Assembly: GCF_000597725.1 (NCBI RefSeq)
Contig: NZ_JFBL01000004.1
Span: forward strand, 1-64,000
Length of the DNA stretch: 64,000 bases
Reading direction: 5' to 3'
Source of the DNA: Sulfurospirillum arcachonense DSM 9755
GTDB lineage: Bacteria; Campylobacterota; Campylobacteria; Campylobacterales; Sulfurospirillaceae
The translations under genes were made by a program, and so were the position numbers. The number at the start of each line of letters is the position of its first letter. Position 1 is the first letter of the stretch. The notes under the pieces were generated by a model, which saw only the letters and a list, made by a program, of their open reading frames with translations, ran no database searches and was not told where the DNA came from. Below, one piece after another: positions 9,476-35,009 of the stretch.

Positions 9476-9559
9476 ATGAAATACAGAAACTTTGTTTCGT
9501 ACTTTAGTGATATGAATTTGACTTGGGCTTGGCTCAAGTTAAAGAAGACAGTTAAATGA
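9476..9559 (+). CDS. Possible 27-residue small protein between fabI and the ABC permease
   Basis: An ATG immediately follows the fabI stop (TAAATG). The frame runs 27 codons and its TGA overlaps the permease ATG (ATGA). The peptide begins MKYRNFVSYFSDM, contains the Trp-rich stretch LTWAWLKL and ends in Lys-rich residues, compatible with an amphipathic membrane peptide. The tight coupling on both sides is the only evidence for translation. It may just serve to couple ribosomes into the permease gene. Confidence 0.4.
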   Translation: MKYRNFVSYFSDMNLTWAWLKLKKTVK

Positions 9560-10521
9560 TTGCACTACAAAAAATCTCTTATGTAGTGTTAATGCTTTTA
9601 ATAATATGTCTAATATCTTTTGGAGCTATTCATTTAGCTCCAAATTCTTTTTTTGCAACTGGTGAACTAAATCCAAACATAACAGCAGAGTCAATAGAAC
9701 AGTTAAAAAGAGTTTATGGCTTAGATAAATCTTTACCTGCACAATTTATATCTTGGCTTAGTGCTGTTGTACAACTAGATTTTGGTATATCTTTTGCAAG
9801 TGGGAAAAGCGTTCGTGATGAAATACTTTCTCGTTTGCCTATAACGTTGCTTTTAAATATAATCAGTTTAGTATTAGTTTTTAGTATATCTATGTTTTTA
9901 GGGATAAAATCAGCACTAAAACAAAATAATAGATTTGATAAATTGGTAAAACAATTTTCCCTTTTTTCTTATGCTATGCCTTCTTTTTATTTAGCACTTC
10001 TTTTAGTCATAATTTTTAGTGTAAAGTTTAATTTATTTCCTATTTCAGGGCTCCATTCAGTTGATGTTAAAAGTGGATTTAGTTACTATATAGACTTCGC
10101 TTGGCATTTGATTTTGCCTATTTTTGTTATGGTTTTTGGAGGTATTGGAAGTCTTACTATGTATATAAGAAGTTTAACTTTAAGTATTTTAAAAAGTGAT
10201 TATATCTTTTTTGCACTTTCACGTGGAATCAAAGGTAATAAGCTTTTTAGGTATTTTATATTACCCAATATTTCGCCACCTATTGTAACTATTTTGGGTC
10301 TATCGCTTCCTGGTCTTATTGGAGGAAGTGTTATTTTAGAATCAATTTTTGCAATAAATGGGATGGGGCTTCTTTTTTATCAAAGTGCACTTAGTAGAGA
10401 TTATCCTGTGATTATGGGAATTCTTATTGTATCTGCATTTTTAACTTTAATAGGAAATATTGTTGCAGATTTAGTTTTACTTAAGTTAAATCCACATTAT
10501 AAAAACTCAAATAAAGTTTAA
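9556..10521 (+). CDS. ABC transporter permease, DppB/OppB family
   Basis: This 321-residue inner-membrane protein belongs to the peptide/nickel-type permease family. It has an N-terminal membrane segment followed by a periplasmic region (HLAPNS..., YGLDKSLPAQFISWL). Further membrane segments surround the cytoplasmic coupling loop, with the EAA-like region at FFALSRGIKGNKLFRYFILPN. The C-terminus has the typical LPGLIGGSVILESIFAINGMG. It would pair with a DppC-type partner, two ATPases and a binding protein, but none is adjacent, so it is an orphan in this window. The substrate cannot be told. Confidence 0.85.
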   Translation: MIALQKISYVVLMLLIICLISFGAIHLAPNSFFATGELNPNITAESIEQLKRVYGLDKSLPAQFISWLSAVVQLDFGISFASGKSVRDEILSRLPITLLLNIISLVLVFSISMFLGIKSALKQNNRFDKLVKQFSLFSYAMPSFYLALLLVIIFSVKFNLFPISGLHSVDVKSGFSYYIDFAWHLILPIFVMVFGGIGSLTMYIRSLTLSILKSDYIFFALSRGIKGNKLFRYFILPNISPPIVTILGLSLPGLIGGSVILESIFAINGMGLLFYQSALSRDYPVIMGILIVSAFLTLIGNIVADLVLLKLNPHYKNSNKV

Positions 10522-22607: not shown

Positions 22608-22639
22608 ACCATAAAGGAGTAGTACGACCGAAAGGTTGT

Positions 22640-22693
22640 GCTTCAGTGCAAGGAATTTTTCAAGGACTTTGTTCTTGAAAAAGGAAACAATTA
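22640..22693 (+). repeat. 54-nt element with RNA hairpin, copy 1 (upstream of the 107-residue gene)
   Basis: This block matches 34950-35003 without gaps, with 46 of 54 positions identical by my count. Inside it, 22656-22667 and 22671-22682 pair as a 12-bp stem (one G-U) with a UUU loop. It is followed by an AAAAAGGAAACAA ribosome-site-like stretch, which is duplicated once more just before the ATG at 22711. Confidence 0.7.
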
Positions 22694-22710
22694 AATAAAA
22701 AAGGAAACAA

Positions 22711-23034
22711 ATGACAAATGATGCTATTTTAAAGCAATTAGACTACACTGTAACTCAAAGTGCATTAGCGCAATTGGATAAAGTTAAAAAAAATACAAAT
22801 GGATTTGATTATGTAGAGAAACACCTTATTACTCTTCATGATCAATTAAAATCTCATTTATCTTACGTGGCACTTTCAAGTAACCAAGACTATTTTAAAA
22901 TTAAGAATGAAGCAAAAGGTGATGCTATGATTAATGAAGTAACTGAAATAATAAAAAAGTGGTCTGAAAAATTTAAAATAGAGATAGAAAAAGTAGATGG
23001 TAAAAATACGTATTATATTATAGGATACAAGTAA
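22711..23034 (+). CDS. Small protein of unknown function
   Basis: This 107-residue soluble protein has no signal peptide or membrane segment. It looks mostly helical (about residues 1-60 and 70-95), ending in a short strand segment NTYYIIGYK. I recognise no family. It has a good AAGGAAACAA ribosome site and its own terminator. A structured repeat that also precedes gmhA lies just upstream, which suggests shared post-transcriptional control. Confidence 0.7.
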   Translation: MTNDAILKQLDYTVTQSALAQLDKVKKNTNGFDYVEKHLITLHDQLKSHLSYVALSSNQDYFKIKNEAKGDAMINEVTEIIKKWSEKFKIEIEKVDGKNTYYIIGYK

Positions 23035-33521: not shown

Positions 33522-34929
33522 ATTAAAAAGTTATAAGCCACGTATTTTAGTTGTTGGTGATTTGATGCTTGATCACTATCTTTGGGGAAATTGTGAGAGA
33601 ATTTCACCAGAAGCTCCTGTTCAAGTAGTAGATGTAAAAAAAGAGACAACAGTACTTGGTGGAGCAGGTAATGTTATCAATAACCTATTAGCAATGGGTG
33701 CAAATGTAAATGTTTTAAGTGTTATTGGTGAAGATAGTAACGGGGAAGAGCTTTTAGAGATGCTTAGTGACTCTGGTGCAGATGCAAGCCAACTTGTTAA
33801 GAAAAAAGGTCGAAATACAAGTAAAAAAAGCCGTGTCATAGCAGCACATCAACAAATCATAAGATACGATAGTGAGTCTAAAAATGATATAGATGAAAAA
33901 AGTGAAATGGAACTTTTTAATAGATTTAAAAAAATTATAACAGATGTTGATGCTCTTTTACTTTCTGATTATGGAAAAGGTGTTTTGACAGAATCTCTTA
34001 CATGTAAACTCATAAAGTGTGCAAAAAAACATGAAAAATTTATTTTAGTTGATCCAAAAGGAGAAGACTACAGTAAGTATAAAGGTGCAACGCTTATAAC
34101 ACCAAATAAAAAAGAAGCTGTCTTAGCTACAAAGATAGATATACAAGATGAACAAAGTTTATATGAAGCAGGGGAGTTACTAAAAGACTCTTTAGAACTT
34201 GATTATACGATTATTACTCTTAGTGAAGATGGTATGGCTATATTTGGAGAAGAGGTGACTAAGGTACCAACAGTTGCTAGAGAAGTTTTTGATGTAACAG
34301 GAGCTGGGGATACTGTACTAGCTTCTTTTGGATATGCTTTATCTTGTGGACTAGATATAAAAGAAGCAGCTTTGTTTGCAACAAGTGCAGCAGCAGTTGT
34401 AGTTGGAAAACTTGGAAGTGCAACTGTGAGTTTAGATGAAGTAGATATGTATGAACAAAGTTTAAGAAGTGCTAAAGCAGATAGTAAAATAAAAACAAAA
34501 GAAGAAATTAGTAAATTATTGGAAAAGTTTAGAGATAAAAAAATAGTGTTTACTAATGGCTGTTTTGATATTCTTCATGTTGGGCATGTGAAATACCTTG
34601 AAATTGCAAAAAGTTTTGGAGATATGCTTATAGTGGGTCTAAATTCTGATGATTCAGTTAAAAGACTTAAAGGTGAGAGTAGGCCAATAAATCCTAGTGA
34701 AGATAGGGCATATGTTTTAAGTGCACTTGAGTCAGTAAGTTTTGTAGTTGAGTTTGAAGAAGATACCCCTTATGAGCTTATAAGCATAGTACAACCTGAT
34801 GTTTTAGTAAAAGGTGGAGACTATGAAGGAAAAGTTGTAGTTGGAAGCGATATTGCAAAAGAAGTGAGATTGGTTGATTTTGTTGATGGAAAAAGTACTA
34901 CAAATATAATTAAAAAGGCACAGTTATGA
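33514..34929 (+). CDS. hldE: Bifunctional heptose-7-phosphate kinase / heptose-1-phosphate adenylyltransferase
   Basis: The N-terminal domain (about 1-315) is a ribokinase-type sugar kinase with GGAGNVINNLLAMG and the catalytic GAGDTVLASF. The C-terminal domain (about 340-471) is a nucleotidyltransferase with FTNGCFDILHVGHVKYL and GESRPINP. Together they make ADP-heptose from heptose-7-phosphate, with GmhB acting between. The stop overlaps a 27-codon ORF (ATGA) that leads into gmhA. Confidence 0.96.
   Translation: MDRLKSYKPRILVVGDLMLDHYLWGNCERISPEAPVQVVDVKKETTVLGGAGNVINNLLAMGANVNVLSVIGEDSNGEELLEMLSDSGADASQLVKKKGRNTSKKSRVIAAHQQIIRYDSESKNDIDEKSEMELFNRFKKIITDVDALLLSDYGKGVLTESLTCKLIKCAKKHEKFILVDPKGEDYSKYKGATLITPNKKEAVLATKIDIQDEQSLYEAGELLKDSLELDYTIITLSEDGMAIFGEEVTKVPTVAREVFDVTGAGDTVLASFGYALSCGLDIKEAALFATSAAAVVVGKLGSATVSLDEVDMYEQSLRSAKADSKIKTKEEISKLLEKFRDKKIVFTNGCFDILHVGHVKYLEIAKSFGDMLIVGLNSDDSVKRLKGESRPINPSEDRAYVLSALESVSFVVEFEEDTPYELISIVQPDVLVKGGDYEGKVVVGSDIAKEVRLVDFVDGKSTTNIIKKAQL
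33998..34008. repeat. Dispersed palindrome copy in hldE
   Basis: TTACATGTAAA, encoding Leu-Thr-Cys-Lys in the kinase domain. Confidence 0.7.
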
Positions 34930-35009
34930 AAATTCTATGTGAAGCATTAGCTTTAGTGCAAGGAATTTTTTCGGGGCTTTGCTCAGGAAAAAGGAAACAA
35001 TTAATATGA
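34926..35009 (+). CDS. Possible 27-residue small ORF bridging hldE and gmhA
   Basis: The ATG overlaps the hldE stop (ATGA), and 27 codons later its TGA overlaps the gmhA ATG (ATGA again). The peptide contains [19 protein letters not shown]. Most of it lies over the structured repeat, so the frame may be incidental or may serve coupling through the hairpin. In the sister copy at 22,640 the same frame has a stop and no start, which argues against a conserved peptide. Confidence 0.35.
34950..35003 (+). repeat. 54-nt element with RNA hairpin, copy 2 (upstream of gmhA)
   Basis: This is the second copy of the element at 22640-22693. Arms 34966-34977 and 34981-34992 pair with one mismatch and a UUU loop. 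Compared with copy 1, two pairs change on both sides (A-U to G-C and A-U to C-G). The GGAAACAA ribosome-site stretch directly follows the stem and precedes the gmhA ATG at 35006. Confidence 0.7.

Follow-up and report, generated by a model that had tools for sequence, protein, structure and literature searches.

A small, probably mobile repeat of Campylobacterota that doubles as a structured leader

The genome of Sulfurospirillum arcachonense DSM 9755 (the source genome) harbors a family of roughly 50 to 60 copies of an element with a unit of about 80 bases, which works like a small mobile repeat doubling as a leader. Copies have been gained at pre-existing sites, mostly with their own Shine–Dalgarno (SD) sequence correctly spaced before the start codon. 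The second of the two hairpins in the unit is kept by Watson–Crick covariation, and the strands flanking this hairpin, including the SD AAGGAG, covary as non-Watson–Crick pairs. The analysis started from the window, that is, the first 64,000 nucleotides of contig NZ_JFBL01000004.1, and was extended to related genomes; G, L, and g numbers denote genomes, loci, and genera.

Anatomy and size of the repeat family

The original prediction held that a 54-nt block at 22,640–22,693 recurs without indels upstream of gmhA and that both blocks fold into a 12-position stem with a UUU loop. Positions 22,640–22,696 and 34,950–35,006 indeed align without gaps, and the stem is found at 22,656–22,667/22,671–22,682 in the first copy. 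Pair-by-pair comparison of this stem (hairpin 2) between copies 1 and 2 gave exactly the differences that had been claimed: two double changes (A–U to C–G and A–U to G–C), one single-sided change (C–G to U–G), and one lost pair (A–U to G/A), all other pairs being identical. The match is only part of a longer unit, roughly 22,621–22,696 in copy 1, with another hairpin (hairpin 1) outside the reported block; it had been overlooked that the block belongs to a two-hairpin unit usually ending in an SD and a start codon. Because copy 1 folds only moderately better than shuffled sequences (z = −1.7) and copy 2 no better (z = 0.0), these two copies alone are weak proof of a structure, and the claim becomes strong only with the family of further copies.

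All features in the window are on the forward strand. Copy 1 consists of a predicted hairpin 1 (22,621–22,642; AGTACGACC-GAAA-GGTTGTGCT), whose position and hairpin habit recur in other copies, the conserved strand GCTTCAGTGCAAGGAA (22,640–22,655; model positions 1–16), which forms the 5′ side of a non-canonical internal loop as judged by conservation and by the 11:47 and 13:45 couplings described later, hairpin 2 (22,656–22,682; 12 bp, UUU loop), supported by folding and covariation, and the SD-containing 3′ strand GGAAACAATTAAAT (22,683–22,696), assigned from sequence and coupling. A second AAAAAGGAAACAA occurs at 22,698–22,710, immediately 5′ of the ATG at 22,711, with which a 107-aa ORF begins (orf107; 22,711–23,034). 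This ORF is present in 42 of the 44 genomes of the host family, has no Pfam match, and has no assigned function.

The whole copy 2 insert (34,930–35,005) lies between the stop codon of an hldE-like gene (TGA, 34,927–34,929) and the gmhA ATG at 35,006, as determined by filled/empty comparison with 29 orthologues, and its ends are uncertain by a few bases, ATGA being common to both sides. Its hairpin 1 (34,941–34,954; GAAGC-ATTA-GCTTT) was read from the sequence and is part of a longer alternative hairpin in energy folding. Hairpin 2 (34,966–34,992), identified by folding and alignment, has one mismatch, and the SD-containing strand (34,993–35,005) adjoins the gmhA start codon, at which the copy ends. 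Copy 3 (9483–9557), a covariance-model match, comprises a hairpin 1 (ACAGAAAC..GTTTCGT) and a core at 9501–9557; it is an SD-poor variant (U13, A45), and its end is the ATG of an ORF at 9556–10,521.

Throughout the family, the order of the unit is hairpin 1, conserved GCUUUAGUGnnAGGAAUUU, hairpin 2, and AAGGAGACAnUUAAAUG, and the 3′ part usually contains the SD and the start codon of the next gene. Reading of more than 100 copies showed that hairpin 2 is followed by AAGGAGACAnUUAAAU and then usually by the G of ATG. Hairpin 1 occurs in several sequence types (ACGACC..GGUUGU, CUAUGC..GCAUAA, ACAGAAGC..GCUUCGU, and UUCUCGCC..GGCGUA). Variants with an extra hairpin, either in the hairpin-2 loop or substituting for the GCUUUAGUG stretch, were seen at L091 (7625–7704), L063, L112 (3841), and L251, and short units, each consisting of a hairpin 1 plus GCUUUAGUG, form tandem arrays just 5′ of type 1 copies (the element described here) at L084, where the unit is TAGAATTTTTCTTGCTGACAAGCAAAGCTTTAGTGAGAAG, and at L100, where it ends in ACGACCGCAAGGTTGT.

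A covariance model built from the two copies, which had been suggested as a check, gave 46 matches in the source genome at E ≤ 0.05, a number that rose to 51 when the limit was relaxed to E ≤ 0.5. A refined model, rebuilt from 109 matches, gave 64 matches at E ≤ 0.5, 57 of which had E < 0.001. Copies are hence numerous and hairpin 2 covaries among them, which is the opposite of the two outcomes (no further copies, or differences that ignore pairing) named beforehand as speaking against the element. Matches were found in 32 of the 44 genomes of the host family, and copy number differs hundredfold between relatives, from 0 to 3 copies per genome in genus g4 to as many as 93 in genus g2. In a survey of 397 Campylobacterota genomes, in which no more than 14 candidates were scored per genome so that copy counts are lower bounds, 66 genomes from 16 of the 68 genera had a match. 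All 60 pattern matches in genome contigs came from Campylobacterota, and the exact two-copy pattern was not found in viral contigs. Rfam gave no family match in the window and, with permissive thresholds, only chance-level matches; one of these, the Na+ riboswitch (RF03071; E = 0.88), was rejected because its aligned stems mismatch the two hairpins. We found no published description of the element in the open-access literature, which is weak evidence of absence.

The structure was assessed in two sets of copies. In a set gathered by a pattern search that placed no constraint on the hairpin-2 interior and was thus not fitted to the structure, 57 distinct interiors had a mean minimum free energy of −10.6 kcal/mol versus −2.3 kcal/mol for shuffled sequences, and the 24 nt upstream gave −4.1 versus −1.4 kcal/mol. 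In an alignment of 106 distinct copies, which was fitted to the structure, 95.7% of the hairpin-2 cells are paired, double changes occur at nine of the 12 pairs, and the covariation score is 0.687, compared with 0.214 for shuffled and at most 0.160 for slid alignments.

An ordered internal loop that contains the SD

Mutual information in the 106 copies, calculated for columns that the covariance model treats as independent, revealed coupling between positions 11 and 47 (GG 68, AA 18, UG 18, AG 2) and between positions 13 and 45 (GG 91, UA 10), counts that derive from related copies and hence do not represent independent events. Both pairs are in the same antiparallel register as 9–49 (G–C) and 8–50 (U–A). 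A pattern set of 149 copies in which these positions were left free agrees on the whole (11:47: GG 105, UG 17, AA 14, others 13). Positions 44–48 on the 3′ strand are the SD, which is therefore embedded in an ordered internal loop, rich in purines and bounded by hairpin 2 on one side and by a short UG/CA helix on the other. We also considered, and rejected, a base triple in which an upstream UUCUN strand would join positions 11 and 47, the association not being clean.

The loop resembles loop E and sarcin-type internal loops in that purine-rich non-Watson–Crick strands are framed by helices in both. Bifurcated G·U pairs are known only beside other non-canonical pairs, for example in bacterial loop E (PMC6617799), and such a context would suit the U·G variants of the element. 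This is a resemblance only.

Position, mobility, and selection

Among 52 inspected copies in the source genome, 37 have their start codon at one particular spot at the element end, give or take 5 nt, 11 have it 12 to 46 nt further on, and four lie before rRNA genes (three contig ends with a 16S leader and one 23S). Most copies lie inside operons, because about 33 of the 52 have a same-strand ORF ending at most 100 nt upstream. When all copies are considered, a start codon at the fixed spot goes with an intact SD: it was found for 101 of 128 copies with G45 versus one of 15 with A45 (p = 5 × 10⁻⁸). In the exceptions, such as dnaK and 23S, the SD has been lost, yet the fold is retained, with U·A at 13:45 in most cases. 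The conserved structure with an SD at a fixed distance from the start codon is as expected of a cis-acting translational leader.

Genes whose ribosome-binding site is borne by the element include fusA, purA, ispH, metG, argG, and pyrB, as well as gmhA in the window, and ispH, purH, and two further genes carry it in more than one family; apart from those with a Pfam match, gene names were assigned by reading N-terminal sequences. The expectation that the element stands in front of unrelated genes thus holds for many copies in this genome and its relatives. These are repeated leaders, as proposed, but not restricted to mRNA, since copies also occur before 16S and 23S rRNA and within what, judging by the flanks, is RNase P RNA, where the copy sits between CTACCAT and a GGAAAAGGTGAAACGG stretch in four g4 genomes (L035, L337–L339). 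A short ORF within the element was rejected as an explanation; the open frame differs between the selB copy (L006) and the gmhA copy, so coding is not conserved.

The original prediction had not noticed mobility, which is apparent from empty orthologous sites, tandem arrays, and differing 16S copies. In total, 60 filled/empty site comparisons were made, and insertion polymorphism of the kind expected of a mobile element was seen at the gmhA, orf107, dnaK, and 16S sites. Of 30 gmhA orthologues read, only the one in the source genome has the element; in most of the other 29, the hldE-like gene runs directly into gmhA, and some have a different insert. The orf107 site is filled in the source genome, carries another subtype in G006 (L181), appears from its sequence to hold a decayed copy in G041 (L158), and lacks the element in the other genomes read. 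In relatives, the dnaK site is empty, filled, or occupied by a related type 2 element. One 16S operon of G023 is filled and the other empty, and the two 16S genes of G018 are preceded by type 3 copies that differ from each other. Tandem copies are recurrent, with a spacing of 72 to 86 bp.

Several related inserts were observed along the way. Some g4 genomes (L137, L146, L149, L155) have another conserved insert (GAGAGATGATAAACAAAAGTGAACTGCTTCACTTTTGTCAGCTCGG...) separating hldE from gmhA. The type 2 element begins with hairpin 1 and GCUUUAG as in type 1, continues with GUGCCCUAGUGGCUAACGUAGCC...GGCGU, looks like a three-way junction, and has no Rfam match; it occurs upstream of dnaK (L267, L269, L273, L276, L279, L282, L283, L286), at L030, and, in other families, at L102 and L236. 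Type 3 (hairpin 1, GCUUUAGUAUUUGGUUCUUU...AAAGAAC) takes the same position before 16S in genus g4 (L294, L295, L302, L308, L316). The likeness of type 2 to type 1 suggests that both belong to a superfamily sharing one 5′ module.

The ends of the element were inspected for traces of a transposition mechanism. None of the three window copies has an inverted repeat spanning its ends, as would be typical of MITEs of DDE transposons. The only candidate target-site duplication at gmhA is the ATGA common to both ends, and the presence of a start codon would by itself lead one to expect a shared ATG. At the left end, ATG is not enriched, and ATGA was found in 37 of 99 copies versus a mean of 22.7 and a maximum of 40 in shuffled sequences. 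The gmhA, 16S, 23S, and RNase P sites had pointed to insertion strictly after ATG, an idea that was discarded, the dnaK and SD-poor copies ending in AAAT plus another base. Y1_Tnp genes are present in 39 of the 44 genomes, but a clear copy at a distance of about 1.5 kb or less was seen at only one of 30 Y1 loci (L186), so a flanking RAYT was not generally found. Y1/RAYT proteins were rejected as the mobilizer: the genes are widespread, but those read bear GGGGTCAGG/GGGGACAGG-type ends. The single Y1 transposase genes at L192–L200, L204, L213, and L214 (about 250–350 aa) form a separate transposon-like family, and many of them are bounded on either side by GGGGTCAGG/GGGGACAGG repeats.

The pyrB copy is under purifying (host) selection. 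In genus g4, it has diverged by 0 to 16% between species, compared with 26 to 73% at fourfold sites, and for the pair L023/L024, there are 0 differences in 77 element positions versus 29% at fourfold sites. Comparisons with L036 were unusable because the beginning of its pyrB has an apparent frame shift in a run of Ts, either real or a sequencing error. This constraint, together with the presence of the element at the same genes in more than one family, indicates that some copies serve the host. Other copies have decayed, including the source genome's own pyrB copy (L256), in which hairpin 2 is damaged, and L158.

Function, rival explanations, and known systems

We consider it likely that, in general, the element is both a mobile element and a selected structured leader. 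The element, about 80 bp long, would be non-autonomous, moving as DNA with the help of an enzyme provided in trans, and would become a structured leader once transcribed. In the mRNA, the folded loop may keep the SD partly closed until a protein, the ribosome, or ions open it, by which translation of the downstream gene would be set or regulated. That such SD gating is the main function is a tentative proposal, which we hold with somewhat less than even confidence. It is not the whole story, because the SD-poor, 16S, 23S, and RNase P RNA copies keep the fold without using the SD.

These latter copies are better accounted for by an RNA-processing site, in which the rod of hairpin 2 and the ordered internal loop is cut by an RNase III-like or other double-strand-specific nuclease, separating cistrons and trimming RNA 5′ ends, with insertions before rRNAs or within RNase P RNA being tolerated because they are cut or looped out. 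In line with this idea, copies occur immediately ahead of the mature 5′ regions of 16S and 23S, inside RNase P RNA, and mostly within operons, and SD-poor copies retain the fold; for comparison, RNase III cleaves the Correia elements of Neisseria (PMC10969869). However, the stem, at 12 bp, is short for a substrate of classical RNase III, neither the strict start-codon spacing nor the association with the SD is explained, and close relatives lack the element at the very sites concerned, 16S among them. We regard processing as unlikely. We are equally doubtful about a purely selfish repeat, moved by hairpin-dependent DNA transposition, whose structure is kept for moving only and whose SD makes insertions at start codons harmless. 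This reading explains decay and arrays, and the presence/absence differences and the hundredfold range of copy number also agree with it, as do the independent insertions that recurred at identical 16S and dnaK positions. It conflicts with the purifying selection that acts on the pyrB copy where a genome has just one to three copies and with the recurrence at the same genes in different families, and no transposase or terminal repeat was found.

A further concern is the covariation itself. Compensatory change had been taken to mean that RNA structure is kept; the structure is kept, but compensatory change alone is not an airtight argument, since hairpin-templated mutation, in which one arm is copied from the other, could mimic it. 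Such repair of imperfect palindromes is known, and the hairpin-2 arms are far more variable between copies than the flanking motif, yet remain paired. On the other hand, the coupled changes at 11:47 (G·G to A·A) and 13:45 (G·G to U·A) lack palindromic character and could not arise by arm copying, and hairpin 2 of pyrB is nearly frozen across large synonymous divergence. An artifact of this kind is therefore very improbable, and the case for RNA structure is made by the non-Watson–Crick covariation and the pyrB constraint.

Among known repeats, the Correia elements and the TAACTGA repeats of Beggiatoaceae come closest in habit. Correia/NEMIS elements of Neisseria are likewise small mobile repeats that enter transcripts, where they can be processed (PMC10969869), as the present element may be, but they have terminal inverted repeats, which the window copies of the present element lack. 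The TAACTGA repeats of marine Beggiatoaceae are abundant, lie a few bases 5′ of the start codons of unrelated, partly essential genes, and have been proposed to be translational regulator sites (PMC4679880). They are heptamer direct repeats at genes where a canonical ribosome-binding site is rare, in contrast to a structured two-hairpin unit that includes the SD. REP/REPIN sequences (associated with RAYT, IS200/IS605-type Y1 proteins), of which REPs have been reported in Sulfurovum (PMC3733652), are also short, hairpin-forming, intergenic, presumably non-autonomous, and present in tens to hundreds of copies and tandem arrays. REPs lie downstream of genes, whereas this element, with its SD, is found on the upstream side, at the start codon; moreover, no constant REP tag was found within 60 nt upstream (GTAG in 17 and CGTC in 4 of 141 copies).

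A bolder possibility, which we think improbable as it stands, is a phylum-wide mobile RNA regulon of Campylobacterota, in which a leader that inserts at start codons locks the SD in a non-Watson–Crick, possibly loop-E-like module, and housekeeping genes, rRNA operons, and RNase P RNA share one trans-acting factor, possibly a protein that recognizes the module. Small bacterial repeats are usually regarded as junk or as terminator- or stability-type hairpins. In this case, dozens of genes per genome receive their ribosome-binding site from a single family, through a conserved fold with non-canonical pairs. If this fold gates translation, mobile insertion would be a route by which many genes gain the same post-transcriptional control together, and the family would provide a testable system for the origin of RNA regulons in an ecologically major lineage of vents and sediments.
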